DNA from: Nitrosovibrio sp. Nv4
GTDB lineage: Bacteria; Pseudomonadota; Gammaproteobacteria; Burkholderiales; Nitrosomonadaceae
Direction of reading: 5' to 3'
Assembly (NCBI RefSeq): GCF_900215485.1
Contig: NZ_OCMZ01000001.1
Coordinates: 930,001 to 994,000 of the forward strand
DNA: 64,000 bases
A model generated the notes under the pieces. The model saw only the letters and a program-made list of their open reading frames with translations. It had not been told where the DNA came from and did no database searches. Both the position numbers and the translations under genes were made by a program. Shown piece after piece: positions 1 to 13,256 of the stretch. The first letter of the stretch is position 1. Every line of letters starts with the position of its first letter.

Positions 1-684
1 TCACTAACGACGTCATTTTGCCCATCGCCCGCATTAGCGGTCGTGCTGGAATTTACCCGAAGGAGGATTGATTTCCGAGTGCTGCGCAACACCCTATTTG
101 CAGTTGTGCCTTATGGAGAGGTTGGGCGCGGCACGCTGCCATGTGCCGCGGCAAGAAGTTTGCGACGCTCTTGCTTTTGTTGTCATTGTACACCCCCGAG
201 ACTGTATGCTGTTCTTCCGCAATGCATCTTCCGGAAGAGTGATTGAATGAATACATACCATGATAACGGACTCAGCCTGCCTCGACTTTATTGCAGGAGT
301 TCACTTGTTTTGTACCGGTTGTCGAATTAAGATTTTGCGTCGTTTTCCCCACCAGCCATTGTCGCGTTGACCCGCCATCCTGTTGGGCGTATATTCGAGT
401 TGAGAAGGTTCTTAAAGGTTGTCGTCGCGCGAAGGGGAACCCGATTCCGCAGCCCCCATAGGCGGAATATATCCGGGCCGGCCACCGTGCTTATGGCCCC
501 TTTTCTTTGACAGCTCAAGTGCTCCAGTATTATTTAGAGAAGCCGTTCCCTTCGCAAGCCCGTGTGACCCCATCGATGGATTTTAAGGAAGATCGCGTTT
601 AACCGGACGGATTGGAAAATCCGCAGGTTCACAGCCGCGTCAATGTACCGCAAGGATTCGTCATGAAACATTCGGTTTAATGGC
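1..684. other. No recognisable gene
   Basis: No reading frame here has convincing protein character or a ribosome binding site; the short open frames (60-77 codons) overlap each other in several frames. The only structure I see is a perfect 6-bp hairpin with a GGAA tetraloop at 608-623 (CGGATT/AATCCG), about 60 bases before the ThiF-like gene. It is not followed by a T-run, so I do not call it a terminator. The stretch may be decayed coding sequence, as elsewhere in this region, but I could not match it to anything. Confidence 0.4.
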
Positions 685-1545
685 ATGCAACCCTTTATAT
701 ATGATGAGGCCTTTTCTCGAAATATCGGCTGGCTGACCCGGCGGGAGCAGGACGAACTACGCGACAAACGGGTAGCGATTGCAGGTATGGGAGGCGTGGG
801 CGGAATTCATCTTCTGACCCTTTGCAGACTAGGTATAGGTAAATTTCATCTGGCTGATTTTGATACTTACGATCTGGCCAATTTCAATCGTCAGACTGGG
901 GCGGCCCTTAGTACGTTGGGCCAACATAAGCTGGACGTCATGATTCGGCAGGCGGAGGACATCAACCCCGAACTGGATATCAGGGGATTCCCCGAGGGGG
1001 TGACAGCCGACAATCTGGATGAATTTCTGGATGGAGTGGATATTTACATTGACGGGCTGGATTTCTTCGCTTTCCAGGCTCGACAGCAGGTATTTGCCGC
1101 TTGTGCCGCAAAAGGTGTGCCTGCAGTGACTGCGGCCCCACTGGGTATGGGTACGGCGGTGCTCAATTTTTTGCCGGGCGGTATGAGTTTTAAGGATTAT
1201 TTTCGTCTGGACGACGGTACAGAGGCAGAAAAACCCGTCCGTTTTCTCATGGGATTGGCGCCGGCCCGGTTGCAAATGAGCTACCTCGCCGATCCTTCCA
1301 CGGTCGATCTGGCAAGACGCAAGGGTCCCTCCACGATCATGGCCTGTCAGTTTTGCGCTGGCGCCGCAGCGACTGAAGCCATGAAAATTCTCCTTGGGCG
1401 CGGCCCTGTCCGGGTCGCACCCAAGGGCTACCATTTCGATGGATATCTCAACAAACTGGCACTTACCTGGCGACCGGGGGGAAACCGCAATCCCCTGAAT
1501 CGCCTTGCGATTGCCATCGCCTGTCATAAGCTCGGCCTGAGCTGA
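685..1545 (+). CDS. ThiF/MoeB/E1-like adenylyltransferase
   Basis: This is a 286-residue Rossmann-fold protein of the ThiF/MoeB/UBA superfamily, which activates a carboxylate by ATP-dependent adenylation. The nucleotide loop GMGGVGG is at residues 34-40, Asp58/Asp60 lie in the ADFD segment, the NFNRQ motif (Asn68, Arg69) is at 66-70, Lys82 is in the LGQHK segment, and a DGLD motif is at 123-126. These are the ATP/Mg-binding residues of the family. The two CxxC zinc pairs of MoeB are not seen: there is only one pair, Cys221/Cys224 (CQFC), and no obvious thioester cysteine. The start is the only ATG after an in-frame stop at 664, with a weak ribosome site. It lies beside PEP-CTERM, FeeM-like and nitroreductase-like genes, and a decayed second copy of its 3' end sits at 4725-4915. 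From memory, mycobacterial Rv1355c-type proteins fuse ThiF and nitroreductase domains, which would support a shared pathway. The substrate is unknown. Confidence 0.85.
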   Translation: MQPFIYDEAFSRNIGWLTRREQDELRDKRVAIAGMGGVGGIHLLTLCRLGIGKFHLADFDTYDLANFNRQTGAALSTLGQHKLDVMIRQAEDINPELDIRGFPEGVTADNLDEFLDGVDIYIDGLDFFAFQARQQVFAACAAKGVPAVTAAPLGMGTAVLNFLPGGMSFKDYFRLDDGTEAEKPVRFLMGLAPARLQMSYLADPSTVDLARRKGPSTIMACQFCAGAAATEAMKILLGRGPVRVAPKGYHFDGYLNKLALTWRPGGNRNPLNRLAIAIACHKLGLS

Positions 1546-2199
1546 CATGATACGCCGAGGGAGCAGCAGCCCGATTTCATCCTCTCAAGAACGTCATCTT
1601 GCCACCTGAGCTGATACCAGAGTCAAATTTCCGCTTGTCTGGCTAAAATCACCTTCTCTGCGCCTGCTAGCGCCGAGACTAAACTTCTCCTCCGGAGGAA
1701 ATACGAACGCTCGTGCTATTACCGGATGTCGAGAAATCTTACAGTTCTACCGGCCATTTCTTGACGTCTCCGTCAAAATTACACTCCCAGCTCAACACGG
1801 CCCAACTGGATACGTATGCCATGTAATCGGATTGGCGGTTTTCAGCCTATGGAAGAACTCTCAGCCCCAAAACAGTCATAGATGGACTTTAGCCGAGCCT
1901 CTCCGGTTGCCAACTACCCTTGGCAAAATATCGCGCTGTACGCAGGCAGGCTCTCCCCCTGCGTGGGGAAAGCCTCTCTGTCGAATTATTTTACATATCT
2001 TTACCTGTGAGCCAGCATGAATAGAAGCTCATGTTGTGATATCAATATTTATATCTTTATATACAAGTAATTAGGACGTGCTCCCTCCAGTTATGGCACG
2101 ACTTGTGCTTCAAATAAATCGACGGATGCCGATGCTTTGGGCTTCTTTCTGCAAAATTGTAAAAATACTAACGCGGTTTAATCTTTATAGGGATAGATC
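1546..2199. other. Intergenic region before PEP-CTERM gene
   Basis: No credible gene. The left part is unremarkable and may be decayed sequence. The last 150 bases are AT-rich and carry the sigma-54 promoter reported separately at 2094-2109 and the leader of the PEP-CTERM gene at 2200. The 62-codon frame at 1832-2020 has no family resemblance and no ribosome site. Confidence 0.5.
2094..2109 (+). promoter_or_regulatory. Sigma-54 (-24/-12) promoter of PEP-CTERM gene
   Basis: TGGCACGACTTGTGCT matches the RpoN consensus TGGCACGN4TTGC with the correct GG-to-GC spacing and one mismatch in the -12 block (GTGC instead of TTGC). It lies about 90 bases before the ATG at 2200. In Zoogloea and Aquincola, PEP-CTERM genes depend on RpoN and the PrsK/PrsR two-component system (established knowledge). 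The second PEP-CTERM gene of this window has an equivalent site. No PrsR-type activator is encoded in the window. Confidence 0.8.
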
Positions 2200-3123
2200 A
2201 TGGACACGAAACTGAAACCGATTGTTGCTGCGCTGGGGCTGGGGCTGGCCCTTCTCTCCGGGCCATCAGCCGCCGTCGTAACCCTTTATAGCCCCCTCAC
2301 CGGCTTCGAAGATGATAATATAGACTTTCTCCTGGACGCCAATAATACGCCAGACGTCTTTGATGTCGGTGACACCCTGCTCTCCGTTTTTGAGATTACC
2401 CAGACTTTTGATGTCACTGGCAGTGACAGCACTCTTATTTTTCCTCAAGAGCTGACTGGCGTCGCTGCGGTTACGCTCCTTCGCTTTGATGATCTGGATG
2501 GCGTGGGTGGCAACAATGATATGGTCTTTGGCGCCTATGCCCCCGGCTTGAACTCGCTTCTTCCCGGCAATGTTGTGACAGGAGGTGGAGCAGGCGGCGG
2601 CGCGGTAGCCGCTTTGTGGCTGGACGATACGCCGAATCTTAGTACCTTGGGTGCCACAGACTGTACCAGCCAGGCAGACTGCATTGCGAAGGCGACTGAC
2701 GGCAGTCTGTTCGAGGTTGATGGCTTTTCCGCAGCCGACGGCGATGAATTCTGGATTGCCTTGAATGCCCAGACCAGTGTCCCTATCGTCGCCGGGGGGT
2801 CATCTAGCGCCGATTTTGCGGCAGTCAATTTTGGCCTCAGTATCCTAGATGGCGGACCGAACACATATGGATTGCAGGACTGCTCCGGCCTCTCTCCTTT
2901 TTGCGCCAACGCAGCGCTTGATCCCGACAACGGTCCTCTGGATAACATGATCGGCGTCCTTGGTTCCGGCTCTGTTTTGGGTGGTGACGGCTTGACAAAT
3001 GGCGCCTTTGCTCATAGCGATTTTGACTTCCAGAAAGCTCCTGGTGAAATCCCCGAACCGGCAACGCTCGCTCTGCTGGGTCTGGGCCTGCTGGGTATGG
3101 GCGCCGTGCGTAGAAGGGTGTGA
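2200..3123 (+). CDS. PEP-CTERM sorting-domain protein
   Basis: This is a 307-residue exported protein. An N-terminal signal peptide (MDTKLKPIVAALGLGLALLS, residues 1-20, cleavage near 26) is followed by an Asp/Gly-rich extracellular region with no recognisable catalytic domain. The C-terminus is a tripartite PEP-CTERM signal: IPEP motif, hydrophobic helix LALLGLGLLGMG, and basic tail RRRV. Exosortase is expected to process this tail and hand the protein to the surface or matrix. Four Cys in two short pairs (around residues 152-161) and two more near residue 230 may form disulfides. The ribosome site is AGGGATA, six bases before the ATG. A sigma-54 promoter lies upstream and a strong terminator downstream. 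The family's proteins are typically linked to biofilm or floc matrix; this one's specific role is unknown. Confidence 0.9.
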   Translation: MDTKLKPIVAALGLGLALLSGPSAAVVTLYSPLTGFEDDNIDFLLDANNTPDVFDVGDTLLSVFEITQTFDVTGSDSTLIFPQELTGVAAVTLLRFDDLDGVGGNNDMVFGAYAPGLNSLLPGNVVTGGGAGGGAVAALWLDDTPNLSTLGATDCTSQADCIAKATDGSLFEVDGFSAADGDEFWIALNAQTSVPIVAGGSSSADFAAVNFGLSILDGGPNTYGLQDCSGLSPFCANAALDPDNGPLDNMIGVLGSGSVLGGDGLTNGAFAHSDFDFQKAPGEIPEPATLALLGLGLLGMGAVRRRV

Positions 3124-3154
3124 GAATATGCTGAGACATGCGGGTCAACTGTAT

Positions 3155-3182
3155 AAAAAGCCCCCTCATGAGGGGGCTTTTT
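3155..3182. terminator. Bidirectional Rho-independent terminator
   Basis: A near-perfect palindrome, AAAAAGCCCCC-TCATGA-GGGGGCTTTTT, forms an 11-bp stem with A-run and T-run flanks. It can stop transcription in both directions between the PEP-CTERM gene (plus) and the convergent FeeM-like gene (minus). Confidence 0.95.
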
Positions 3183-3392
3183 ATGGATTGCTCCGGATGA
3201 ATTCTGACAAAGAAGTTACGCAGGACAACGGCTCAGGTTGAAAGCCATGTGTACTTATTTTTATTTCCAGGCCGGTTTCTTTCCGATACGTTCTCCGGAA
3301 ATCATTCCACCTCAACAGTCAAAATTAAGTGAGTCAACTGACAAGCAATCAGGCTGTGATCAGTTTACATCGGCCGAGAGCCAGTCACTCAG

Positions 3393-4190
3393 CTAATGCG
3401 TTGCCAGAGAGTGGCGCATGAGGTTATTGGCTACCCTATGTTCCTCCGTCTTAGTGAGAAAATAGGCGTAGAGGGATCTTTGCCTGGGGTCAGGGGAGCC
3501 CGCCAGGGACAAAATCTGGGTATCCACATAATCAAGCTCCAGATGCAACAGCACAGCTGGTGCATTGACGCGCTGACAGGTGCGTGTTTCACCAATCTGC
3601 CGAAATCCCAATATGCGTTTATAATATCCCTTGTGGCGCGGGTTAATTTCGATAACGAAATCTGTGGCCTTGCGAACGATACGCCCATAGATATAAGCGA
3701 GATTGAATAGAGAAGCAAGTAGCTCTTTTGAGCTGTGAACAGGATCTATTGCAAGCTTTGACAACTCACAGACTTTTCGGTCTTTTGCGCGGAGGGTTTT
3801 GAGCTCCTGTTCGTAAAGCGTATCAACCAGCAGCCCTTCCTTCGAATCGACACCTATCGTAAGCGTGCCGGCGAGATCCTGTCCGATGGATGCCTCAAGC
3901 GTTAGCTGGTTCGGATTATGTGAAGAAATGGCTGAACCCTCGGTATGATATCCACGCCAGGAGTACATGCTCTTGACCAGCTTGTTCACGAGGCTGCATT
4001 GCCGGGGTGAGTTCGCCAGACAGATACTGTAGTTACCTTGTCTCAAAATGCATTTGGTGTCGGAAATTCCAGCGAGACTTCCTTCATTCTTAAGGGGCAG
4101 CGGGCGTGAAGTGGAATGGATAGCTTCTTTGACGGAGGAGGGGAAATGAGGTCTTGCAAAGCGAATATTTTCGTCGTTGTATAAGTGCAT
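3393..4190 (-). CDS. FeeM-like N-acyl amino acid synthase (copy 1)
   Basis: This is a 265-residue GNAT-fold protein of the autoinducer-synthase/FeeM type. These enzymes transfer a long acyl chain from acyl-ACP to an amino acid. After a variable N-terminus (1-50) come IRL-like strand residues (ICLANSP), the SWRGYH segment, TLEASIGQDLAGTLTIG (the core beta strands), CELSKLAIDP near residue 142, and EINPRHKGYYKRILGF near 182. The last two are hallmarks of the family. It is clearly paralogous to the protein at 7335-8105, sharing the ELSKLA-DP, LAYIYGR and INPRH/VNPRH blocks. The ribosome site AGGGA lies nine bases before the ATG. It is convergent with a PEP-CTERM gene; FeeM-type synthases have been linked to PEP-CTERM/exosortase loci in Gram-negative bacteria (Craig, Cherry and Brady, J Bacteriol 2011). 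The amino acid and acyl specificity cannot be read from the sequence. Confidence 0.85.
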   Translation of the reverse strand: MHLYNDENIRFARPHFPSSVKEAIHSTSRPLPLKNEGSLAGISDTKCILRQGNYSICLANSPRQCSLVNKLVKSMYSWRGYHTEGSAISSHNPNQLTLEASIGQDLAGTLTIGVDSKEGLLVDTLYEQELKTLRAKDRKVCELSKLAIDPVHSSKELLASLFNLAYIYGRIVRKATDFVIEINPRHKGYYKRILGFRQIGETRTCQRVNAPAVLLHLELDYVDTQILSLAGSPDPRQRSLYAYFLTKTEEHRVANNLMRHSLATH

Positions 4191-4724
4191 GATTTATGTC
4201 CCTGAGGTTTAGTTGGATTGATTCAAACTCTGAATGCAATACCCCTGGCGGATATGGGGATATAGGCGCGCCCTCCGCGATGGAATGACTTTCGCTAAAC
4301 GTAGTATGAAAACTGGTCAAATGGGACGAATGGTAGGCCCATATTTGCTTGAGATTGAGTCACTTGTTGGGAGAAACTGCTGCGTTTAGCAAGATAATTT
4401 ATTGGGCGAACTTGCGCTTGTCTTAGCCCAAAGCACAAAGCATGCCAGTGCTTTTTTATCCGCATAATCATGCGTTCGCGGCAATACGGACCTCCCAGAG
4501 TGTCGCCAAACCAGCCAAGTTTCTCCCCCTGTTTCCTTAACTACTTGTTTTTTAAAAGAGTTAATGTGTTGCCAAAAAGAGACAAAAATCAAGATAGCAG
4601 CTGGGGTTCGTTGATGAAGGATTGCAAATTGAGATGAGTCGAAAGCATGACAACGTCAATTGGAGAGGTATGAATGCGGGGGGAAACATATGGCTACTTC
4701 CGCTATAGACAGCGAGAGCGCGAG
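4191..4724. other. Intergenic, largely featureless
   Basis: No supported gene. An 8-bp inverted repeat (GCTAAACG near 4293 and CGTTTAGC near 4382) and a hairpin with a T-run (AAAGCAC/GTGCTTT, 4430-4457) are present, but neither fits the direction of nearby genes. The right end probably continues into the decayed ThiF-like copy that is clear from about 4725. Confidence 0.4.
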
Positions 4725-4915
4725 CCCGAAAATGGGGTGTCAAGTTTGGGCGCTCGACGCGTGAAGTCTCCCATCTCGCATGACTACAGGTAGCCGATCT
4801 ACTGGCGGACGCCGCGATAGATTATCTGCTTTGGGCGTATCTTAACAAACTGACGGTTTAGCTGATAACCGGATAACGGGCAATCGTATCGCTATTCGCC
4901 ATTTGGAATTTTGGG
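4725..4915 (+). pseudogene. Decayed second copy of ThiF-like gene (3' part)
   Basis: This stretch is collinear with the 3' part of the ThiF-like gene at 685-1545. ATGGGGTGTCAAGTTTG at 4732 matches ATGGCCTGTCAGTTTTG at 1339 (MACQFC in the intact protein, MGCQVW here). TATCTTAACAAACTG at 4838 matches TATCTCAACAAACTG at 1444 (YLNKL), and CAATCGTATCGC follows where the intact gene has CAATCCCCTGAATCGC. The spacing between the first two blocks is 106 bases here against 105 in the intact gene. In-frame stops and indels show it is dead, and the 5' part is missing, probably lost toward 4190. It ends 75 bases from the convergent nitroreductase-like gene, so an ancestral ThiF-nitroreductase pair is likely. 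Confidence 0.75.
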
Positions 4916-4989
4916 TCAGGCAAAATGGAAGCACAGAGAACGGCGTTCTAGTGGAAGTACCTCAGTGATGTTCATCCAAGGCTGAGCGG

Positions 4990-6048
4990 CTAGATGGAGG
5001 TGGCATCCATGAATACGGATTCGAGCGGCAATCTTCTCGACCGTACCGGCTCGGTTTTCGGGTAGCCGACGCGCATGATCATGTGTAGCATTTCATCGGA
5101 CTGTAATGCCAGCAGCTCACGTATTTCCTCTTCTACTTCGGAAATCTTTGTTTCAAAACCCGGGGCTGCCGTTCCTTCCCGGAAGCGGTTGATCTGGTCG
5201 GACACGACATAGTAGGGATGTACAGCAATGCCTTGTTCGTTGAGATCCACCCAGAGGCGTGTCATAAGGCGCCCGCCATCGATAATGCTCCGCGGATCAC
5301 TGCGGCGGCCAATTATGCAGAGCAACGCCGGCGCCTCGGCAAGCAGGGAAACTTCCGAGCGCGCCAGCAGTTTGTATAAACCCAGACCATTTAGCGCTGA
5401 CATTCTTTTCCAGTCCGAGATAAATTTAAAAAAAAACTTCCCGCCGGGCGGCAGGGCTAAGCTTTCGATATCAAGTCCGTCGCCCCGTGCAATGTCTTCC
5501 GGCGTGAAACGCAGGCTGTTGATCAGCCATTCGTGCAGTTTTGGGTTGCAAAAGCGTGCTTCCGAGCAAATTCGAACAAGCCGAATCAGCCGGGATTTTT
5601 CTGCGAGATCGATCAGGCAGGATGCCCGATTATCGTTTTCCCTGTAATTTCCAAGTTCGCGAAAAAGATTGGCAGGCAAGGCGTCAGCGCGAAAAGCAAA
5701 CCTGTTTGTGTGGCGTAATGAGAGAGCCTGGGGAGATGCGAAGTTCGTGGAAGTGCCGCTGAGTGCGACCGAAGCGTAGGGTTGTCCAAGAGCCGGATTG
5801 GAAGGCCACTGCCATTGGAAGGAGACCGGGTTGGCATTCAACGCAACTTGTATGTATTCAACTACCGCCCCTACTGCCAGTAAGGTCGCGTGGCTCTCCG
5901 CCGCAAACAGGTTATGTGTTTTATCGCGTAGCGCATACCTGATGGCTAATTCTGTTCCGTTCCAGCCCAACGTCCAAGGTTGGGAATTGTCAGCCGAGGG
6001 GGCCCGTGCAGCGGCAGCAGCCAGTTTCTTTATCCAATCAATGTCCAT
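4990..6048 (-). CDS. Nitroreductase-like FMN oxidoreductase
   Basis: This is a 352-residue protein of the nitroreductase superfamily, closest in style to the Acg/Rv3131 type and to the nitroreductase half of Rv1355c-like proteins. The N-terminal RAPSADNSQPW block (Arg15, Ser18, Gln23) is the FMN-phosphate-binding start of the fold. A second family block, LSLRHTNRFAF, lies near residue 109. The middle segment with EAPALLCIIGRRSD, then GRLMTRLWVDLNEQGIAVHP (a conserved helix), and a C-terminal MIMRVGYP strand complete the fold. No strong ribosome site is visible. It stands alone on the minus strand, downstream of a PEP-CTERM gene but separated from it by a terminator, and next to a decayed ThiF-like copy. 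In azole-forming peptide pathways, an E1-like protein and an FMN dehydrogenase cooperate. Whether that applies here is inference. Confidence 0.75.
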   Translation of the reverse strand: MDIDWIKKLAAAAARAPSADNSQPWTLGWNGTELAIRYALRDKTHNLFAAESHATLLAVGAVVEYIQVALNANPVSFQWQWPSNPALGQPYASVALSGTSTNFASPQALSLRHTNRFAFRADALPANLFRELGNYRENDNRASCLIDLAEKSRLIRLVRICSEARFCNPKLHEWLINSLRFTPEDIARGDGLDIESLALPPGGKFFFKFISDWKRMSALNGLGLYKLLARSEVSLLAEAPALLCIIGRRSDPRSIIDGGRLMTRLWVDLNEQGIAVHPYYVVSDQINRFREGTAAPGFETKISEVEEEIRELLALQSDEMLHMIMRVGYPKTEPVRSRRLPLESVFMDATSI

Positions 6049-6187
6049 AAACGACGGATGGCCAGCAGCAATTCAAAATAGCAAACAGGTAGTTCTTGAA
6101 TATAACACGAGAGGGTTTCAGTTATGGATGGAAGTTCGGTCTTCCAAAAAACTCATCTCTTTCGTTGATCCTCCCTACTGTTGTTTC

Positions 6188-6220
6188 AAAAAAAAAGCCC
6201 ACCCCCATCGGGAGGTGGAC
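6188..6220 (-). terminator. Rho-independent terminator
   Basis: Read on the minus strand, a stem CCACCtCCC-gat-GGGGGTGG is followed by GC and nine T residues. It sits 28 bases after the stop of the PEP-CTERM gene at 6248-7069 and separates it from the nitroreductase-like gene. Confidence 0.9.
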
Positions 6221-6247
6221 CTTCTGTTGGATCGGATCGTCAGAAAT

Positions 6248-7069
6248 CTAAGAACGGCGCCGGCGGCTAGCGCCCATGGCCAGCAAGCCAAGACCGATCA
6301 GAACAAGCGACGCGGGTTCTGGCACCTGGTTAAAGTCGACTCCGCCGGTAGCCTGATTTATTGATGTAAGGTCACCGTTTTTCGTAATACCCTGGCCTGT
6401 ATTATTGAATTCGGTGAATGCTATATCAAAGAACGGAACCGGATCAACGAAAAACGAGCTCCCCTCCGCTGTCAGGGTTAAGCTATTGATCGAGTTCAGG
6501 AACGCTCCGCCAAATTGGTTGAAACCAGACTGCCCGCTACCGGGATTCAATAAGCTTCCGCCGCCGAGAATAATATCGTTACCACCAACATCGACATACG
6601 TCGCATTCGTGGCCGTAAGCGCATTTGCTGCCGTAAAAGAGTTGCCCGCGTCTGGATCAAAAAACATCGTGTAATCCAGTTGGGTAAGGGTATTGGTGCT
6701 GTTGGGCGCATCAAGAGTGCCGGACGCAAGCACATCGGCCAGCTGGAAGGTTACGAAGAGGCCATAAGTATTCCCCAGCCCAGACGTTATGCCAAATATG
6801 GGGTTTGACCCAAGGCTGAAGCTGGTAAACTGCAGCCATCCCGATCCGGTGTGACCACCCACTCCGACTCCGCCTGCGGTCGACGTCAAGAGTTCCGACG
6901 AGACGCCGGCAATAAAGTCTGCCTGGAAGGGTCCCTGCGGCTCGCCAAGCCCACTCGGGTTAACGGTAAATACCGGTACCGCCCAGGCGTTTGAGGCGAT
7001 CCCAACGGCAAGCACGGCCCCACTGGCGGTTGCCAAAAGGGATTTGCGTAAGTTTGATATATTCATCAT
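6248..7069 (-). CDS. PEP-CTERM protein resembling floc protein PepA
   Basis: This is a 273-residue exported protein. The signal peptide covers residues 1-30 (cleavage after SNAWA), and the body starts VPVFTVNPSGLGEPQGPF. The body contains a TSGLGNTYGLFVTFQ block, a FDPDAGNSFTAANALTATNA stretch, and a GGAFLNSINSLTLTAEGS-FFVDPVPFFDIAFTEFNNTGQ block. These resemble the flocculation-associated PEP-CTERM protein PepA of Zoogloea. The C-terminus is NQVPEPASLVL, a hydrophobic helix and ASRRRRS, a canonical PEP-CTERM signal for exosortase processing. A sigma-54 promoter about 75 bases upstream and a strong terminator downstream make it a single-gene unit. Expected location is the outer surface or matrix. 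The PepA identification is from memory of family blocks, not a search. Confidence 0.88.
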   Translation of the reverse strand: MMNISNLRKSLLATASGAVLAVGIASNAWAVPVFTVNPSGLGEPQGPFQADFIAGVSSELLTSTAGGVGVGGHTGSGWLQFTSFSLGSNPIFGITSGLGNTYGLFVTFQLADVLASGTLDAPNSTNTLTQLDYTMFFDPDAGNSFTAANALTATNATYVDVGGNDIILGGGSLLNPGSGQSGFNQFGGAFLNSINSLTLTAEGSSFFVDPVPFFDIAFTEFNNTGQGITKNGDLTSINQATGGVDFNQVPEPASLVLIGLGLLAMGASRRRRS

Positions 7070-7142
7070 GAATTTCCTTAGTTTTATAAGTTTTTCGTAT
7101 CTGCGGCAATTCCGAAAAGAATATTTGCCTCAACATAGTATA

Positions 7143-7158
7143 AGCAGAAACCGTGCCA
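7143..7158 (-). promoter_or_regulatory. Sigma-54 (-24/-12) promoter of pepA-like gene
   Basis: On the minus strand the bases read TGGCACGGTTTCTGCT, matching the RpoN consensus TGGCACGN4TTGC with exact spacing and one mismatch (CTGC). The -12 element is about 75 bases from the ATG at 7069. It pairs with the similar element at 2094-2109; both precede PEP-CTERM genes. Confidence 0.82.
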
Positions 7159-7334
7159 GCTATATTAAGCTCGAAATATCAGGTAGATAGACGGTTATCT
7201 TTTCCCCAGTGTAAAATTATTCGACGGAGCTTGCACGATTACGATTGAAGTGGCGTCGGAATACCGTAGGACGGAACGGCCGGTTGCCTGAATCAATAGC
7301 CTTCGAGAGGTGACGAGGCTAAAGGAGTTTTTGT

Positions 7335-8105
7335 CTAATTAATATGCCCACGAAGCGTATCGGCCAGTCCTTCTTCCTCATGTTGAGGAAGAAAGTAGCG
7401 ATAGAGGGACTTTTCCTTAGATTTGCAAGAATTTGCTAAGGAAGCGATTTTAGCATCCACATATTCCAGCTCCAAATGCATCAGTACTGCTGGTGCGTAA
7501 ACCCGGCGACAGATACGTTCTTCGCCGATCTGGCAGAGTCCGAGCATACGCTGATAGAATCCCGCATGACGCGGGTTCACCTCGATAAACAAGTCTGTAG
7601 CATTGTGGATGTTACGTCCATAGATATAGGCCAGGTGAAAAAGGGACCCTAATATCTCTTTAGAACTGTACCGGGGATCTACAGCCAATTTTGAGAGCTC
7701 GCACACGCTCCTGTTTTTCGTTCTGAAAATACTGATCTCCTCTTTGTACAGTTCGTCAGCAAGCAAGCCGTCATTTGAATCAAGTCCCAATGTCACTGTA
7801 CCGGCCAGGCGCTCCCCGATGGTGGCTTCCAGTGTCAACCTGCGAGGATCATGCGGGGCTATAACTGCAACATCATTTTCCACATGATAGCCACGGCACG
7901 AATACATGCGTTTGATAAGCATGCTTGCCTGACTGCGTTGTATGGGTGAGTCTGCCAGGCGGATGCTGTAATCACTACGTCTCAGTACGTAGTTTGTACG
8001 GGTTTCATATAGAGATTGGTCAATTGAGTTCGTGAGCCGCAGGTCGTAGTCGGGACTTTTCCCGGCGGGGAAAAGAGACTGGTTTTTATTGGAGTAGCTA
8101 TTCAT
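7335..8105 (-). CDS. FeeM-like N-acyl amino acid synthase (copy 2)
   Basis: This is a 256-residue paralogue of the protein at 3393-4190 and has the same block order. YSIRLADSPIQRSQASMLIK near residue 46 is followed by SCRGYH, TLEATIGERLAGTVTLGLDS, CELSKLAVDPRYSSKEILGS and EVNPRHAGFYQRMLGLCQIG. It conserves the GNAT core and the Glu/Asn/Pro/Arg/His signature typical of FeeM and autoinducer-synthase folds. The N-terminal 40 residues differ strongly between the copies, as do the C-terminal tails, so the substrates may differ. The start has no clear ribosome site. It lies upstream of, and in the same direction as, the pepA-like gene, but that gene has its own sigma-54 promoter. Expected reaction: acyl-ACP plus amino acid gives N-acyl amino acid (family knowledge). 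Confidence 0.85.
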   Translation of the reverse strand: MNSYSNKNQSLFPAGKSPDYDLRLTNSIDQSLYETRTNYVLRRSDYSIRLADSPIQRSQASMLIKRMYSCRGYHVENDVAVIAPHDPRRLTLEATIGERLAGTVTLGLDSNDGLLADELYKEEISIFRTKNRSVCELSKLAVDPRYSSKEILGSLFHLAYIYGRNIHNATDLFIEVNPRHAGFYQRMLGLCQIGEERICRRVYAPAVLMHLELEYVDAKIASLANSCKSKEKSLYRYFLPQHEEEGLADTLRGHIN

Positions 8106-8840
8106 CGTCAGGCGATTGCATGGGACTAATATCCGTCATTCAGTCATTAATCGGATTTATCAAATCTGAGCTGTAGCACTTGGTGTCATGGAATGATGAC
8201 GTTTCAGTCACACAGCTCAGCGGATGATCTGTAAAAAAAGCTGCGTGAAATGGGATCAAGTGGGGCGCTAAAGAACGATAAAGGCGGTATCACATGTTGT
8301 GGTAGTTGCGCGTGGCAAGCGATTTCGGCATATTGCTCGTAACGGACCAGTACGATAAGCAGAATTCATGCCAGACTATTTCATGCATAGAATCAGCGTT
8401 TAATGCTTCTCTAAGCTCAGCCGTTGTCGCCAGAATCCGCCCATGATTCACTATTAATAGGTAAAGCGCTGTTTGCGCGTATTTTTCCCTGTCTCCAAAA
8501 AGCGACAATAAAGCTCAGCCGTCGAAAAATCGTGCCGACGCAAATGAGAGGATAAGAAGCGGAAGTATAAACCCGCCGATCCCCTCAGCACCGAGGAAGT
8601 ACGGATCGCTAAAAATGTAGAACTGTCCCCTTCTGTTGAGTTATACGGGCAGGGCCGAGCGATATCCGTGTTTCAGGGCCTGTTGCAGCTGCGTATGGAC
8701 AGAAAGCTGGACGAGCAGGCATGCGCTAAAAAATTCCTCAGGACCATGCGTGGCGCGTAGTCTGCCGAGGCTAATCCACTCTTGGAGCTGACCACCTGAA
8801 CGGGCAAGGCGGAAATTGGTGGGGACACTAAGTGATGTGA
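8106..8840. other. Long intergenic stretch, possibly decayed genes
   Basis: No gene with start, ribosome site and family resemblance. A plus-strand frame open from 8548 to the TAG at 8758-8760 (70 codons) has plausible protein composition (ends KKFLRTMRGA) but no upstream start codon. A 72-codon minus-strand frame at 8290-8508 (starts MSLFGDREKY) is also unrecognised. Either could be a remnant of a lost gene. Confidence 0.4.
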
Positions 8841-9623
8841 TTATCGATGCGCACGCACCCAGTCACGCCACTGATTAAACAGGCCCAGATCAAGCGCCGC
8901 GATGGCCGAGCGTTGCCAGAGCGGCTCAGCCCAGAAATCATCCTGGTCGAGACCACACATGTGCCCTCCGGCCTCTTCCAGAATAAGGCTGCCGGCGGCG
9001 TAATCCCACAGTTTTTGGCCGCCGTGCAGGTACAGGTCAAACCGCCCAGCCGCGGTGTAGCACCATTCCAGCGAACAAGAGCCGTAATTCCGCTGAGAAG
9101 AAAATGGCCGCGCCGAACAGATTCCCTCTGCGAGACCGCTGCTAAGGCGTTTCAAATCAATGTTTGCCATCGCGCTTCGCAACGCCGGCACATGTTCCTT
9201 GATTGGTAGTTTTTCACCGTTAAGATAGGCCCCTCTGCCCTGCTCGGCGTAGAACATTTCATCAGCAACCGGATTATAAACCGCGCCGAGCACACTCCTG
9301 CCCTGCCGCATCAGGGCCACCGAAACTGCAAAATAGGGCAAGCCGTTGACAAAATTGGAAGTGCCGTCGATCGGGTCCATGCACCATAGCCCGGCATCCC
9401 CTGCACGCCAATGCGAAACCTGCTCGTGCTCCGTCATTTCCTCTCCGACGATGGGACCGGGATAAATCTTTTGTAATTCGCGCGATAGCGTTTCCTGCGT
9501 GACAATATCCGCTTCGGTGAACAGGCTGCCATCCACCTTGCGCTGTCTTGCTACTTTCAGATAGCGCGGCAGTATTTCCTGCTGTGCGACGGCTTTGACC
9601 GCACTAATGACTGCGTCAAGCAC
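8841..9623 (-). CDS. Inositol monophosphatase family phosphatase
   Basis: This is a 260-residue Mg-dependent sugar/nucleotide phosphatase of the IMPase/FIG superfamily. The metal-site motifs are clear: GEE at about residues 60-62, DPIDGTSNF near 83-91 (the signature WxDPxDGT motif, with Cys-Met in place of the usual Trp context), and WDYAAGSLILEEAGG near 208, which supplies the last metal Asp. The length is normal. It starts with GTG, with a GGAG ribosome site six bases upstream that lies inside the last codons of the redoxin gene; the stop of that gene is three bases before the start, so the two are cotranscribed. It could be SuhB-like, histidinol-phosphatase-like or CysQ-like; the sequence alone does not settle the substrate. 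Confidence 0.88.
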   Translation of the reverse strand: MLDAVISAVKAVAQQEILPRYLKVARQRKVDGSLFTEADIVTQETLSRELQKIYPGPIVGEEMTEHEQVSHWRAGDAGLWCMDPIDGTSNFVNGLPYFAVSVALMRQGRSVLGAVYNPVADEMFYAEQGRGAYLNGEKLPIKEHVPALRSAMANIDLKRLSSGLAEGICSARPFSSQRNYGSCSLEWCYTAAGRFDLYLHGGQKLWDYAAGSLILEEAGGHMCGLDQDDFWAEPLWQRSAIAALDLGLFNQWRDWVRAHR

Positions 9624-9626
9624 CTG

Positions 9627-10184
9627 TTACTCCACCCGCCATTTAATCGAACAGCCGATGCTCGAAATCTGTTCGTCAGGCCCGCGGCCAGTCTCTGCGA
9701 CCTGGCGCATCGCCTCGAAAAGATCGCGTCGCGCATCGGCGGGTGCGGCTTCCTTCCGAGATGCATCCAGACGGCCGCGGTACTGTAATTCAAGCTGGTC
9801 ATTGAAGCCGAAGAAATCGGGCGTGCACACAGCCCCATAAGCTTTCGCGACCTGCTGGGTTTCGTCCCATACGTAGGGGAAAGAGAAGTCAAATTCCCTT
9901 GCTACCCGCACCATGTTGTCAAAAGAGTCTTCCGGATAATCCAGAGGATCGTTCGACATGATTGCAACCGCGCCTATACCGTACTCTCGCAATTCCGTCA
10001 CGTCGCGCACGATGCGGTCTCGAACCGCTTTTACATAAGGGCAGTGGTTGCAGATAAACATGACGAGCAGCCCGTTCTTGCCCCGTGCCGAGGCAATGTT
10101 GTAGCGCCTCCCATCTACTCCTGGTAAATCGAAATCCACCGCCTTCCAGCCGAAATCACAAACAGGGGTTTCCAGGCTTGCCAT
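9627..10184 (-). CDS. Thioredoxin-fold (AhpC/TSA-like) protein
   Basis: This is a 185-residue redoxin-type protein. The DLPGVDGRRYNIASARG strand-loop start is typical of the AhpC/TlpA clan. The active motif FICNHCPYVKA near residues 45-55 provides a CxxC pair (CNHC), as in thioredoxin-like proteins rather than one-Cys peroxiredoxins. The conserved cis-Pro segment is AVCTPDFFGF. I chose the ATG at 10184 because AGGAGAG lies seven bases before it; the upstream in-frame ATG at 10208 lacks a site and gives an unusual leader. There is no signal peptide, so it is probably cytoplasmic. It is the first gene of a two-gene operon with the phosphatase. The redox partner is unknown. Confidence 0.85.
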   Translation of the reverse strand: MASLETPVCDFGWKAVDFDLPGVDGRRYNIASARGKNGLLVMFICNHCPYVKAVRDRIVRDVTELREYGIGAVAIMSNDPLDYPEDSFDNMVRVAREFDFSFPYVWDETQQVAKAYGAVCTPDFFGFNDQLELQYRGRLDASRKEAAPADARRDLFEAMRQVAETGRGPDEQISSIGCSIKWRVE

Positions 10185-10383
10185 GTTTCTCTCCTGAATG
10201 AATGACAAATGACTTATACGCTATTCAACTCAATACCTGAACGAAGCTCGCGCAAAAAAATTGCGAGTACCGGATATAATTGATAACCAATTTGTTGACG
10301 GTGCTATTCAAGACGAATTTGAAATTGGTCGAGGCGTTAATATTATCATGAGAGAAGCCCATTAATTCTCGTTCCTGAAATCA

Positions 10384-11142
10384 ATGACACTGTCCCGTTT
10401 TTATTGCCCCGGCGAAATTTTCACTGGCCGGGCCATCGAGCTACCCGCAGGTGCCGCGCATCATGCATTTCGGGTATTGAGGCTCGAACAGGGCGCGAAT
10501 GTGATATTGTTTAATGGCAATGGGGGGGAGTTCCTCTCGGTCATTGTGCGGATCGGTAGAAACGGCGCCACGGTCGTACCTGAAAAGCATCTGGATATCG
10601 AACGCGAGTCACAACTGGCCATTACCCTGGCTCAGGCGGTCTGCGCCAGCGAGAAAATGGACTGGATCATTCAAAAAGCGGTGGAGTTGGGCGTAAACCG
10701 CATCCAGCCCCTGGCGACGAAGCTGAGCATGATAAGGCTGTCGGGCGAGAGAGCGGAGAGACGTATGAGCCATTGGCAACAAGTTGCTATTTCTGCATGC
10801 GAACAGTGCGGTAGAAATCATATTCCTCAAGTGCTGCCGCTGGAGCCGCTTCACAACTGGCTTGGCACCCAAGCCAGTGATCGTAAAAATAGCGTTTCGC
10901 CTGATTCGCGTTTTATGCTCTCGCCTGTCGCAAAGAATGCCTTGCGCGATTTCCCCCGATCTTCCGCTGACGCTGCCATAACGCTGCTCATCGGTCCGGA
11001 GGGCGGCTTTACACCGGATGAGGAGGCCGCCGCCAAGGTGGCAGGATTTGTTCCACTGCAATTGGGGGGGAGGATACTTCGCACTGAAACGGCCGCATTG
11101 GCGACAGTCGCGGCAATGCAGACGCTATGGGGCGATTATTGA
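10384..11142 (+). CDS. rsmE: 16S rRNA m3U1498 methyltransferase
   Basis: This 252-residue protein has the full RsmE architecture. An N-terminal PUA-like domain begins SRFYCPGEI and contains HHAFRVLRLEQG. The C-terminal SPOUT/trefoil-knot domain has ASEKMDWIIQKAVELGVNRI, LLIGPEGGFTPDEE near residue 202 and LGGRILRTETA near 226, which bind S-adenosylmethionine. RsmE methylates N3 of U1498 in the decoding centre of 16S rRNA. The length is typical. It is a single gene divergent from the redoxin operon, with no clear terminator downstream. Confidence 0.95.
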   Translation: MTLSRFYCPGEIFTGRAIELPAGAAHHAFRVLRLEQGANVILFNGNGGEFLSVIVRIGRNGATVVPEKHLDIERESQLAITLAQAVCASEKMDWIIQKAVELGVNRIQPLATKLSMIRLSGERAERRMSHWQQVAISACEQCGRNHIPQVLPLEPLHNWLGTQASDRKNSVSPDSRFMLSPVAKNALRDFPRSSADAAITLLIGPEGGFTPDEEAAAKVAGFVPLQLGGRILRTETAALATVAAMQTLWGDY

Positions 11143-11281
11143 TTTGGTAAATTCAGACCGTAGCGACACCTGGTTTTGAAGTTTGAATTTTGGCTGTAAA
11201 CTGTAGAGCTTCTTCCTGAATTTAATTTCATCCGGCTTGGTAGGTAAATATCATGCAGCTTTCAATGCATTGGCCTGAACC

Positions 11282-12622
11282 GTGAGGGTCGACACCGACT
11301 TTGTAGCCTGGTTCCGCTCGGTCGCGCCCTATGTCAATGCATTCCGCCATAAAGTCTTTGTGGTCGCTTTCGGGGGCGAAGTGGTGGCCGACGGTAAATT
11401 TATTGAGCTTGTCCATGACCTCAACCTGCTGGCAAGTCTGGGCGTACGCCTGGTACTGGTCCACGGGGCCCGGCCGCAGATCGAATCCCGACTGAACGAA
11501 CACAATCTGGAAACCGTATATGTAAGAGGGATGCGCGTCACTGACGCTGCGGCACTGCAGTGCGTAAAGGAGTCAATAGGGCGCGTCCGTGTTGAGATTG
11601 AGGCACTATTGTCGATGGGATTGCCTAATTCACCGATGGCTAACGCCGCCATTCGCGTTGCCAGTGGAAACTTCGTGACCGCGCGGCCCGTCGGCGTGAT
11701 AGAGGGCGTTGATCTGATGCATACGGGCGAGGTACGCAGGGTGGATACCGCAGCCATCCGTTCGCGGCTGGACCAGGGAGAGCTGGCGCTGCTCTCGCCC
11801 CTCGGTTATTCGCCCACCGGCGAGATTTTTAATCTGACGTTGGAAAATGTTGCGGCTGAAGCAGCGATTGCACTCAAAGCCGAAAAGCTTATTTTTCTGA
11901 TGGACGCCGGGGGCATAGAAGAGGAGCGTCCGGGGTGCTGGGAACCGGTACTGTCGCGTGAACTGACGGTGGCCGAAGGTAGGGCGCTGATGAATAAATT
12001 TGCCAACGACATCGTCAAACTTTCCGACGATGCCCAGCTGTATCTGCCCTTTGCAATGCGGGCCTGCGAAGGTGGCGTATCTCGTGTTCATCTCATCAGC
12101 CGGCATGTGGACGGTGCAATATTACAGGAGCTATTCACTCACAGCGGCATCGGGAGCATGATCTCCCAAGGCCCGTTGCAGAACTTGAGGGACGCGAAGA
12201 TAGAAGATGTCGGCGCTATCCTGCAATTGATCGGGCCGCTGGAAGCTGACGGGACGCTCGTGCGGCGCAATCGCGAGTTGCTGGAAATCGAAATCGACCG
12301 TTTTGTGGTGATCGAACACGACCGTATGATAGTTGGCTGCGCTGCGCTCTATCCATTTCCTCATGATAAAGCAGGCGAGCTTGCATGTCTTACCGTGCAC
12401 CCTGATTATCGCAGTGGAGGATACGGTGACGCGTTGCTCAAGCATATAGAAACCAGAGCCATATCTCAGGGAAGCAGAAAATTATTTGTGCTTACCACCC
12501 GAACCGCTCATTGGTTTGTAGAGCGAGGTTTTCTCGAGGCTGACGTACGCGAACTACCAAAAGCCAAGCAAGGACTATACAACTATCAGCGGCGCTCCAA
12601 GGTATTCGTAAAACAGATATAG
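11282..12622 (+). CDS. argA: N-acetylglutamate synthase
   Basis: This 446-residue amino-acid N-acetyltransferase performs the first step of arginine biosynthesis (acetyl-CoA plus glutamate). It has the classical bifunctional-looking layout. An amino-acid kinase fold covers residues 1-290 (FVVAFGGEVVADGKF, LVLVHGARPQIESRL, KFANDIVKLSDDAQL). A C-terminal GNAT domain follows (AALYPFPHDKAGELACLTVH, then YRSGGYGDALLKHIE, the acetyl-CoA pyrophosphate loop). The start is a GTG at 11282 that begins the family-typical RVDTDFVAWFRSVAPYVNAF. It is likely feedback-inhibited by arginine through the kinase-fold domain (family knowledge). It appears monocistronic. Confidence 0.95.
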   Translation: MRVDTDFVAWFRSVAPYVNAFRHKVFVVAFGGEVVADGKFIELVHDLNLLASLGVRLVLVHGARPQIESRLNEHNLETVYVRGMRVTDAAALQCVKESIGRVRVEIEALLSMGLPNSPMANAAIRVASGNFVTARPVGVIEGVDLMHTGEVRRVDTAAIRSRLDQGELALLSPLGYSPTGEIFNLTLENVAAEAAIALKAEKLIFLMDAGGIEEERPGCWEPVLSRELTVAEGRALMNKFANDIVKLSDDAQLYLPFAMRACEGGVSRVHLISRHVDGAILQELFTHSGIGSMISQGPLQNLRDAKIEDVGAILQLIGPLEADGTLVRRNRELLEIEIDRFVVIEHDRMIVGCAALYPFPHDKAGELACLTVHPDYRSGGYGDALLKHIETRAISQGSRKLFVLTTRTAHWFVERGFLEADVRELPKAKQGLYNYQRRSKVFVKQI

Positions 12623-12899
12623 AAAAGAGCAGATAACTGCCGGGCTATTTATCTGGCGGGAAAACACGAGGACTTCTCCCGTACCTGATCCAGAGTCAGT
12701 CCAAGCCAGCAGCGGGACTTTGTCTGCCACTGGTAGGAGGCAGCCCGGTATGACATTTGTGCCTTTTCTCGCTCGGTGCTAAAGTCAAGCCGCGCGGTTG
12801 TGATAGAAGTCGTATTGCCGCGTGGATTGTTACATGAACATCAATCTGCTGACGAAGCTGCGAGGCTCGTAGATTATCTGCGCATTTGGAGAGGATAAA

Positions 12900-13172
12900 A
12901 TGGCAAGAGTTGTTAAGTGCGTCAAACTCGGGCGCGAAATGGAAGGGCTGGATTTCTCACCTTATCCCGGTGAGTTAGGAAAGCGTATTTTCGATAACGT
13001 ATCGAAAGAGGCGTGGACTGGCTGGATCCGGCATCAGACCATGCTGGTCAATGAGTACCGCCTGAATCTTTCGGATATCAAGGCACGCAAGTACCTGGCT
13101 GAACAGCTTGAGGCGTATTTCTTTGGAAGCGGGGCCGAGCAGCCTATGGGCTATGTGCCCCCGACGAAGTAA
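12900..13172 (+). CDS. yggX: Probable Fe(2+)-trafficking protein
   Basis: This is a 90-residue YggX family protein. Cys7 in the conserved [11 protein letters not shown] start is the residue linked to protection of iron-sulfur clusters from oxidative damage. The family blocks [34 protein letters not shown] and [15 protein letters not shown] are intact. Ribosome site AGAGGA lies before the ATG. Its usual partner mutY is not adjacent; ppk1 follows 84 bases downstream on the same strand. A cytoplasmic role in iron handling is inferred from the family. Confidence 0.95.
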
Positions 13173-13256
13173 ATATGGCGAAGAAGCGGAAATATACTTC
13201 GTGCAAGTTCGATTCTCCATTTCCACACGGCTTAATAAGGCAGATACTGCTTATCC

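Follow-up and report, generated by a model that had tools for sequence, protein, structure and literature searches.

A probable acyl-oxazolone gene set among the PEP-CTERM genes of Nitrosovibrio sp. Nv4

Introduction

What do an E1-like enzyme, a flavoenzyme and two FeeM-type synthases make together, and what are their genes doing among genes for PEP-CTERM proteins? This question is raised by a 7.5-kb cassette (positions 685-8105) in a 64,000-nucleotide stretch of the Nitrosovibrio sp. Nv4 genome (contig NZ_OCMZ01000001.1, positions 930,001 to 994,000), hereafter the window. A preliminary description had placed six genes here and assigned their families, which open reading frames and profile matches bear out. 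It had also proposed that the synthases make N-acyl amino acids whose carboxylate is adenylated by the E1-like enzyme, with a flavoprotein oxidising the product, in what it took for an undescribed branch of the PEP-CTERM system. The analysis presented here indicates that the cassette is probably an acyl-oxazolone synthesis set of the Oxz/Tyz/Trz type, whose FeeM genes are probably switched by sigma-54 together with the PEP-CTERM genes. The earlier reading was right in kind and the chemistry itself is not new; what is new is how widely the PEP-CTERM link extends.

Contents of the cassette

The six genes are as follows.

685-1545, plus strand: E1/ThiF-like adenylating enzyme, 286 aa (PF00899 and NF006077), predicted N-acyl amino acid cyclase of the TyzB type
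2200-3123, plus strand: PEP-CTERM protein 1, 307 aa (PF07589, 29.8 bits; TIGR02595, 24.4 bits)
3393-4190, minus strand: FeeM1, N-acyl amino acid synthase, 265 aa (PF21926, 167.2 bits)
4990-6048, minus strand: Acg/FDO-type flavoenzyme, 352 aa (NF005901 and NF047509), predicted N-acyl amino acid or oxazolone desaturase of the TyzC type
6248-7069, minus strand: PepA-type flocculation-associated PEP-CTERM protein, 273 aa (NF033554, 195.4 bits, cut-off 80; PF07589, 30.4 bits)
7335-8105, minus strand: FeeM2, N-acyl amino acid synthase, 256 aa (PF21926, 171.9 bits; PDB 2G0B, FeeM, E = 4.8e-12)

Both synthases far exceed the PF21926 cut-off (27 bits), alignment to 2G0B being obtained for FeeM2 only, and both PEP-CTERM proteins exceed that of PF07589 (20.7 bits). 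Acyl-oxazolone cassettes are recognised by N-acyltransferase, ThiF and FDO genes that are adjacent or fused, and such a grouping is found here: FeeM1 and the flavoenzyme gene adjoin, and ThiF, on the opposite strand, is separated from FeeM1 by 1.8 kb that includes a PEP-CTERM gene. Across the genome (3.27 Mb) there are two FeeM matches and one Acg-type match, and NF006077 passes its cut-off once, with weaker ThiF-superfamily matches elsewhere. Since these sole matches all fall within 685-8105, the clustering is beyond chance. A tandem permease pair, one member of which (the sole one tested) is of the MacB/FtsX type, is divergent from ThiF and lies almost entirely outside the window (G000:C3:927557-930034).

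The ThiF-like protein scores 148.5 bits with PF00899 and 445.6 bits with NF006077 (cut-off 266). Its alignment contains all the adenylation residues, that is, the glycine-rich loop, Arg, Lys and Asp, and G34, G36, G37, G39, G40, R69, K82 and D126 are the same in all 19 members aligned. D126 aligns to D200 of a Rhodococcus Rv1355c-family protein and presumably corresponds to D217 of the published TrzS. The listed models for MoeB, ThiF or TcdA, which would have made it a sulfur-carrier or tRNA E1, stay far below their cut-offs, and NF006077 passes.

The flavoenzyme matches the nitroreductase family (PF00881, 33.5 bits, cut-off 23.5) and, below their whole-protein cut-offs, both the Rv1355c (TrzS) family NF005901 (130.6 bits, E = 5.7e-38) and the Acg family NF047509 (107.8 bits). 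A PDB search by sequence alone gave a single weak match (1nox, E = 4.8e-4). The AlphaFold model (mean pLDDT 91.6) is best matched by the Acg homologue 2YMV (TM 0.71 and 0.77), also named as the closest structure by the TrzS authors (PMC12856293). R165, kept in all 10 aligned proteins, aligns to Rhodococcus R530; its equivalence with TrzS R540, an arginine shown to matter (PMC12856293), can only be inferred because R530 is numbered ten below R540. The subtype of this flavoenzyme differs from those encoded beside most of the closest relatives of the window ThiF.

Known systems and the predicted pathway

Contrary to the idea that such a branch was undescribed, OxzAB, TyzACB and TrzAS had already been characterised, and a Stieleria cluster had been proposed to act likewise (PMC7293339). 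In the three characterised systems an aromatic amino acid is acylated, cyclised at the expense of ATP and desaturated in an O2-dependent reaction, which yields an acyl-oxazolone (PMC10404671; PMC12856293). OxzAB of Pseudoalteromonas rubra, an oxazolone synthetase (de Rond et al., 2021, via PMC10404671 and PMC12856293), likewise combines an N-acyltransferase, ThiF and a flavoenzyme, and cyclises and desaturates N-acyl Tyr/Phe. In OxzAB, likened here by description rather than by OxzB sequence, ThiF and flavoenzyme are fused, whereas they are separate in the window, whose set has FeeM proper as its acyltransferase and is flanked by PEP-CTERM genes. TyzACB of Mycobacterium tuberculosis shares separate genes for a FeeM-fold acyltransferase, a ThiF cyclase and a stand-alone FDO; it differs in being actinobacterial, with TyzA assayed with lauroyl-CoA, the comparison again being by description rather than sequence (PMC10404671). 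The words PEP-CTERM and exosortase do not occur in that paper. TrzAS and the Rv1355c family, whose model NF005901 is matched by the window flavoenzyme, have the same ThiF and FDO activities but are fused, actinobacterial and act on tryptophan (PMC12856293).

By homology with these systems and by co-occurrence, the order of reactions first proposed for the cassette is supported and can be refined. FeeM would couple a fatty acyl group, for which acyl-ACP is the probable donor, to a most likely aromatic amino acid. The E1-like enzyme would then adenylate the free carboxylate of the N-acyl amino acid, and the amide oxygen would close the ring to give the oxazolone, with no need for a sulfur carrier. 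The Acg-type flavoenzyme would introduce the alpha-beta double bond with O2, either ahead of ring closure or following it. The amino acid, chain length and product in this organism are all predictions, as is any function in the matrix or at the surface of the cell.

Gene fusions are in keeping with a single pathway. NF011425 (PRK14852), a 989-position NCBIfam model named 'hypothetical protein', has consecutive segments that align with the two FeeMs, with ThiF and with the flavoenzyme; unlike the window set, it holds FeeM, ThiF and nitroreductase in a single chain. It is found here in Nitratidesulfovibrio, within an XrtA/PEP-CTERM locus, where one protein comprising all three lies between XrtA and PEP-CTERM genes; the 974-aa N. 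vulgaris protein (2329.7 bits with NF011425) has FeeM at 43-198, ThiF at 316-565 and nitroreductase from 609. ThiF is fused to the flavoenzyme in 6 of 25 Burkholderiales neighbourhoods and in 14 of 80 named loci. Nitrosospira multiformis Nl12 (L077) keeps the order ThiF, PEP-CTERM, FeeM, flavoenzyme, PEP-CTERM, without the second FeeM.

Breadth of the PEP-CTERM link

The preliminary description had suggested looking for co-occurrence beyond Nitrosospira, and it is there, in both the Burkholderiales and the class samples. ThiF passes its cut-off in 25 of 120 Burkholderiales genomes. Comparing these with the 95 others, and with p values that take no account of shared ancestry, exosortase is present in 24/25 versus 25/95 (p = 1.1e-10), strong FeeM in 23/25 versus 4/95 (p = 1.8e-18) and PrsR in 21/25 versus 11/95 (p = 7.4e-12). 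In the class sample (185 genomes), exosortase accompanies ThiF in 18/19 and is found in 43/166 genomes lacking it. Two genomes (G013 and G217) have ThiF and no exosortase; another (G315) has the ThiF and flavoenzyme pair without strong FeeM.

Physical linkage to the exosortase/EPS locus, frequent but no defining trait of the system, is seen in fewer genomes. An exosortase gene lies within 30 kb of ThiF in 8/25 Burkholderiales and 5/19 class-sample genomes, and in the 10-kb flanks of only four of the 80 named loci. The Nv4 genome itself encodes exosortases at C3:250094 and C3:394368 and PrsR at C3:678204, both exosortase genes being more than 500 kb from the cassette. Many contigs of the named loci end early, and with that limit 30/80 have neither FeeM nor the TIGR03694 PEP-CTERM/exosortase system-associated acyltransferase, and 8/80 have no flavoenzyme. 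TIGR03694, a distant member of the FeeM-fold group (PF21926 29.7 bits for L079), occurs in the ThiF flanks of 26/80 loci; none is found in the 40 kb surrounding the window cassette.

Among 21 genomes of the window genus, ThiF and the flavoenzyme occur in an identical 13, and FeeM in 20. FeeM is not tied to the pair in this genus, and N-acyl amino acids may therefore be end products in many strains.

The PEP-CTERM setting has a partial precedent in the putative stieleriacine cluster of Stieleria maiorica, which lies near exopolysaccharide genes and, like the window set, combines N-acyl amino acid synthase (NAS) and PEP-CTERM genes with genes for an oxidoreductase and, in its case, a protein resembling TcdA, a tRNA threonylcarbamoyladenosine dehydratase; a cyclic intermediate was proposed for it (PMC7293339). 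Unlike Nv4, Stieleria is a planctomycete, its pathway is only proposed and the likeness is one of description, not sequences. Synthases of the window family have been cited for the same PEP-CTERM/exosortase link (PMC4897644; PMC7293339; PMC11072679), in these papers for the synthases alone. Because the pairing of the gene set with PEP-CTERM recurs in many bacteria, it suggests that the oxazolone lipid belongs to their slime-and-surface-protein system.

Possible sigma-54 control

Promoter elements suggest shared regulation of FeeM and PEP-CTERM genes.

1979-1995, plus strand: motif-1-like box TGTCGAATTATTTTACA of the PEP-CTERM 1 promoter, probable PrsR site, found by eye; it resembles boxes before other PEP-CTERM genes
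2094-2109, plus strand: sigma-54 -24/-12 site of PEP-CTERM gene 1 (pattern search)
4432-4447, minus strand: sigma-54 site before FeeM1, 242 bp from the start codon (pattern search)
4501-4510, minus strand: possible variant enhancer box TTTGGCGACA, 53 nt upstream of the sigma-54 site that precedes FeeM1
7143-7158, minus strand: sigma-54 site of the pepA-like gene (pattern search)
7210-7226, minus strand: motif-1-like box CGTCGAATAATTTTACA of the pepA-like gene, found by eye, spacer 51 nt
8358-8373, minus strand: sigma-54 site before FeeM2, 253 bp from the start codon (pattern search)
8425-8434, minus strand: possible variant enhancer box TCTGGCGACA, 51 nt upstream of the sigma-54 site that precedes FeeM2

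Each PEP-CTERM gene has both motifs (motif 1 by eye), and each FeeM gene has motif 2 and a variant box; a box resembling that of FeeM1 also occurs in L077. Motif 1 of PEP-CTERM promoters is 17 nt long and ends in TTTACA (Haft, 2006), and the promoter mapped for pepA of Aquincola contains TGGCAC and CTGCTT (PMC9850573). The 98-nt spacer of PEP-CTERM 1, from motif-1-like box to sigma-54 site, exceeds the published maximum of 92 (Haft, 2006). In the 64 kb, the sigma-54 pattern, which was picked after the sites had been seen, matches four times, once before each PEP-CTERM gene and each FeeM gene; the same search finds no such site before ThiF or the flavoenzyme gene. A fixed rule identified sites before 7/26 FeeM genes in a first set (p = 8e-5), but before only 4/30 in a second set sharing one contig with the first (p = 0.03), where TIGR03694 genes gave 3/28 (p = 0.09). 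ThiF genes gave 0/25 and 1/80, and flavoenzyme genes 0/12 and 0/58, in the first and second sets, respectively. FeeM is probably co-switched with PEP-CTERM genes by sigma-54 in this lineage.

Alternative readings

The strongest competitor, which has perhaps one chance in a few, is that the oxazolone is transient, lost to hydrolysis or to ring opening by a nucleophile, the end product being a stieleriacine-type N-acyl dehydroamino acid secreted as surfactant or signal. Stieleriacines derive from N-acyl tyrosine and carry an alpha-beta double bond; it was proposed that the TcdA-like protein and an oxidoreductase form them by way of a cyclic intermediate, in a cluster with NAS and PEP-CTERM genes (PMC7293339). 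Oxazolones readily undergo hydrolysis and alcoholysis (PMC12856293), and a MacB/FtsX-type permease pair in the ThiF flanks of 23/80 loci (by the stricter count) hints at export. However, mild extraction is reported to yield intact oxazolones from Mycobacterium and Rhodococcus cells, and profile searches find no recognisable hydrolase among the six cassette genes.

An improbable reading makes the cassette a matrix lipid-modification ligase rather than an oxazolone synthase: activation by the E1-like enzyme would serve to pass the acyl amino acid on to another molecule, be it a lipid, an amino sugar of a polysaccharide or an amine of a protein. As a matter of general chemistry, azlactones and acyl-adenylates are both acylating agents; the cassette also has links to PEP-CTERM genes and to XrtA polysaccharide genes. 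Against this, no carrier protein or transferase recurs, by eye, among the frequent neighbour clusters, and characterised homologues form rings (PMC10404671; PMC12856293).

Mere coincidence on one island, with FeeM reflecting the known NAS-exosortase link and ThiF and flavoenzyme a separate pathway, would fit the wider spread of FeeM in the window genus and its strand opposite to ThiF, but is hardly credible given the three-domain fusion, the Burkholderiales co-occurrence of ThiF with FeeM and the many genomes in which FeeM directly precedes ThiF and flavoenzyme on the same strand.

Concluding remarks

For the TrzAS authors, the physiological role of oxazolones is a major unresolved question (PMC12856293, Discussion). 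If the acyl-oxazolone and PEP-CTERM systems are one, (i) oxazolones would be candidate matrix, floc or surface lipids controlled with PEP-CTERM proteins, (ii) TIGR03694 acyltransferases would gain a predicted reaction and (iii) non-pathogenic activated-sludge and nitrifying bacteria would become test grounds, with the PepA-type flocculation protein of the same island offering a ready phenotype. It is a long shot that acyl-oxazolones are a widespread built-in part of the XrtA/PEP-CTERM system, made in the matrix programme, whose ring, a mild acylating agent, attaches lipid to polysaccharide or to the sorted PEP-CTERM proteins, or anchors these at the outer membrane. If the ring did lipidate the matrix or PEP-CTERM proteins, this would join the purpose of oxazolones with the attachment partner of exosortase-sorted proteins.

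A probable oxazolone-type cassette among PEP-CTERM genes

Profile matches place six genes within the opening 8.1 kb of the window, as follows.

685-1545, + strand: E1/ThiF-like gene (ThiF)
2200-3123, + strand: PEP-CTERM gene
3393-4190, - strand: N-acyl amino acid synthase gene FeeM1
4990-6048, - strand: Acg-type nitroreductase-superfamily gene (the flavoenzyme)
6248-7069, - strand: PepA-type PEP-CTERM gene
7335-8105, - strand: FeeM2

Beyond FeeM2 stand apparently unrelated genes, including an inositol-monophosphatase-like gene from 8841 (identified by eye). The whole genome holds only two FeeM matches, one match over cut-off to NF006077 (the ThiF family model) and one Acg-type match. With every one of them in the island, mere abundance of these families does not account for the clustering. 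The gene order is kept in a strain of Nitrosospira multiformis (locus L077), which has one FeeM versus two in the window. A chance neighbourhood can be rejected on three grounds, i.e., this gene order, a natural fusion of the enzymes and the exact co-presence of ThiF and flavoenzyme within the genus. A sulfur-carrier or tRNA E1 function for the window ThiF was also rejected, as the models listed for such functions score below cut-off. An Rfam scan of window 1-20000 gave no matches and a tRNA scan no genes. Elsewhere in the window, at 58741-60063 and 60545-61948, two very similar tandem genes have the appearance (by eye) of porin-like, outer-membrane beta-barrel proteins.

Enzyme chemistry

This set of enzymes has characterised homologues. 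In Mycobacterium tuberculosis, acylation of Tyr or Phe is the task of TyzA, which works best with lauroyl-CoA; TyzB (a ThiF protein) performs ATP-driven ring closure and TyzC (an Acg-like oxidase) an O2-driven desaturation, the final product being C12:0-tyrazolone (PMC10404671). TrzA together with TrzS, a ThiF-oxidase fusion also known as Rv1355c, leads to tryptazolones, with cyclisation preceding desaturation; their ring does not survive acid or methanol (PMC12856293). The likeness of the window trio to TyzACB and TrzAS lies in the same make-up of enzymes. The preliminary description had proposed that the FeeM product is adenylated by the E1-like enzyme and oxidised by the flavoprotein, in a branch of the PEP-CTERM system not yet described; the proposed chemistry is right in kind but not new, having already been established for homologues.

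The window flavoenzyme matches NF005901, the Rv1355c family model, with an E value of 5.7e-38. The PDB structure nearest to its predicted one (mean pLDDT 91.6) is that of the mycobacterial Acg homologue 2YMV, also named as closest by the authors of the TrzS study (PMC12856293). Adenylation residues are kept in the window ThiF, D126 being present in 19/19 aligned members (19 of 25 genomes; G111, G014, G095, G077, G107 and G118, whose genes are cut by stretch borders, were left out). For comparison with OxzB, TyzB and TyzC, a Rhodococcus Rv1355c-family protein served as stand-in reference; neither P. rubra nor M. tuberculosis is named among the best 80 of 540 loci from the contig scan. Window R165 aligns to Rhodococcus position 530 and H277 to 641, each ten positions short of its published counterpart (R540 and Q651), and D126 aligns to 200, the published residue being D217; we infer from these alignments that R165, H277 and D126 probably correspond to R540, Q651 and D217. 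Among the matches listed, the six closest ThiF relatives differ in their partner, which is a window-type flavoenzyme in L077 and of another subtype in genome G014 and loci L078, L080, L076 and L079, which suggests that one flavoenzyme was swapped for another and the pairing with ThiF retained.

Fused forms

The three enzyme domains also occur in a single protein. On NF011425 (PRK14852.1), an NCBIfam family model of 989 positions, the window FeeMs align at 85-238 and 99-206, ThiF at 312-585 and the flavoenzyme at 616-795. A plasmid protein of Nitratidesulfovibrio vulgaris, 974 residues long, matches this model with 2329.7 bits and comprises FeeM (43-198), ThiF (316-565) and nitroreductase (from 609) domains.

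L157:7062-9986: FeeM-ThiF-nitroreductase single protein, in an XrtA/PEP-CTERM locus of the Nitratidesulfovibrio plasmid

On one flank of this gene are a tetratricopeptide protein, a TIGR03013 XrtA/PEP-CTERM glycosyltransferase, a polysaccharide export protein and an XrtA chain-length determinant, and on the opposite flank three PEP-CTERM proteins, a sigma-54-dependent regulator and an ABC permease. Co-occurrence beyond Nitrosospira, which the preliminary description had asked for, is found inside an XrtA/PEP-CTERM locus, and since this fusion belongs to another phylum (Thermodesulfobacteriota), neither the enzyme set nor its PEP-CTERM setting is peculiar to Nitrosospira. Within N. multiformis, strains at loci L111 and L152 have FeeM followed by a fused ThiF-flavoenzyme; the window and L077 have the split form.

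Distribution across genomes

Among 120 genomes of the order, NF006077 is over cut-off in 25, strong FeeM (E < 1e-25, a line that we set on the observed matches) is found in 27 and exosortase in 49. Kinship being ignored, genomes with ThiF differ from the 95 without it in (i) strong FeeM (23/25 versus 4/95), (ii) exosortase (24/25 versus 25/95) and (iii) PrsR, the PEP-CTERM response regulator (21/25 versus 11/95). The class sample (n = 185, kinship again ignored) has ThiF in 19 genomes, exosortase in 61 and both in 18, and after removal of two genomes common to the order sample exosortase accompanies ThiF in 16/17 versus 43/166 without ThiF. Genomes G013 and G217 are the exceptions with ThiF and no exosortase. 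By eye, presence and absence alternate inside several families of the order sample. In exosortase-bearing genomes of the order, a long exosortase frame of 480 codons or more, which we take to be the length of XrtA, is seen in 24/24 with ThiF versus 16/25 without (p 0.001).

Within the genus (n = 21), where the comparison is cleanest, ThiF and the Acg-type flavoenzyme are found in the same 13 genomes, a perfect match with a chance of 1 in 203,490. FeeM is present in 20 of the 21, genome G315 having ThiF and flavoenzyme without it; the pair therefore behaves as a single optional unit next to a FeeM synthase that is retained more broadly. As to copy number and integrity, genome G316 has two ThiF copies (C10:1043753 and C11:424307), one with adjacent flavoenzyme and FeeM. 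At each of L018 (G092), L031 (G082) and L035 (G078), the ThiF match from the family search contains a single stop, which may be a sequencing error, a frame break or an end effect.

Gene neighbourhoods of ThiF

Of the 25 Burkholderiales neighbourhoods (up to ~20 kb per side, less at contig ends), 21 contain FeeM, 19 a flavoenzyme that BLASTP aligns to the one in the window and six a ThiF-flavoenzyme fusion; exosortase lies within 30 kb of ThiF in eight of the 25 genomes. Where FeeM is not local, a TIGR03694-like acyltransferase stands instead (G103 and, weakly, G049) or FeeM is elsewhere in the genome (G111 and G092). The best 80 of 540 relatives, from 592 stretches and with 10-kb flanks (many contigs ending within 10 kb), have a flavoenzyme in 72 loci, a PEP-CTERM gene, as called with our own regular expression, in 44, FeeM in 29, the fusion in 14 and exosortase in four. 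One of the 23 PEP-CTERM neighbours is divided by a stretch border and was left out of their alignment, which holds the other 22; of 22 scanned, seven have a PepA family match (E 1e-15 or better).

In these best 80 of 540 loci, TIGR03694, an exosortase-associated acyltransferase family (one member confirmed with 259.6 bits), occurs in the ThiF flanks of 26, and FeeM or TIGR03694 in 50. That 21 of the 26 have no FeeM found in those flanks suggests that TIGR03694-type acyltransferases are N-acyltransferases of the same pathway. A permease pair adjoins the island.

G000:C3:927557-930034 (the window's own contig): tandem permease genes, divergent from ThiF, their last 34 bases being window 1-34

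One of the two, translated in full, is a MacB/FtsX-type permease. The ThiF flanks of 23 of the best 80 of 540 loci (stricter count) hold relatives of the pair; 15 of these 23 also have TIGR03694, and in seven that acyltransferase is no more than 150 bp from the pair on the same strand. The pair is possibly an exporter of the predicted lipid.

Predicted sigma-54 sites

The pattern TGGCAYRNNNNBTGCW has four matches in the 64-kb window (expected 0.27), upstream of the two PEP-CTERM and the two FeeM genes. As the pattern was written after the sites were seen, these matches are a description rather than a test. Wider scans used the sigma-54 consensus under a fixed rule (10/12 matches, no more than 350 bp upstream of a gene). 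Its core, -24(GG)/-12(GC), is confirmed in PMC1569441.

Genes preceded by a predicted sigma-54 site under the fixed rule
Gene; 25 neighbourhoods; best 80 of 540 loci
PEP-CTERM; 19/23; 37/52
FeeM; 7/26; 4/30 (one on the G062 contig, already counted)
ThiF; 0/25; 1/80
Flavoenzyme; 0/12; 0/58
Other frames; 45/1130; 83/2177
TIGR03694; -; 3/28 (p 0.09)

FeeM sites occur in the window and at L077, L111 and L152 (Nitrosospira), in G107 (same family), and also in G062 (same contig as L086), G021 and G112, with a poor one in G056; from these counts and this spread, the predicted sites are persuasive chiefly within Nitrosospira and the family to which it belongs. The idea that sigma-54 controls the whole cassette is weakened, as sites are not in excess ahead of ThiF or flavoenzyme genes in either set. 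In G062, a motif-1 box and a sigma-54 site lie ahead of FeeM and ThiF-flavoenzyme. A two-part PEP-CTERM promoter was described by Haft et al. (PMC1569441), and the Aquincola pepA promoter, of this type, is RpoN1-dependent (PMC9850573). The window also encodes, at 24533-28056, a sigma-54-type response regulator and a histidine kinase, NtrX/NtrY-like by eye.

What is known and what is new

As regards its setting, the cassette has a partial precedent in the proposed stieleriacine cluster of Stieleria, which includes a PEP-CTERM gene (PMC7293339), and where 'oxazolone' appears in PMC8776678 it refers to methanobactin. For the window cassette, an oxazolone-type product, its regulation and its role are predictions. 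The Stieleria proposal set aside, we did not find in the open-access literature searched the consistent tie that the genomes point to, that is, between oxazolone-type cassettes with FeeM or TIGR03694 and the PEP-CTERM/exosortase system. As predicted from gene content, the reach of this tie is across Gammaproteobacteria (in the GTDB sense), plus one fused case in Thermodesulfobacteriota.
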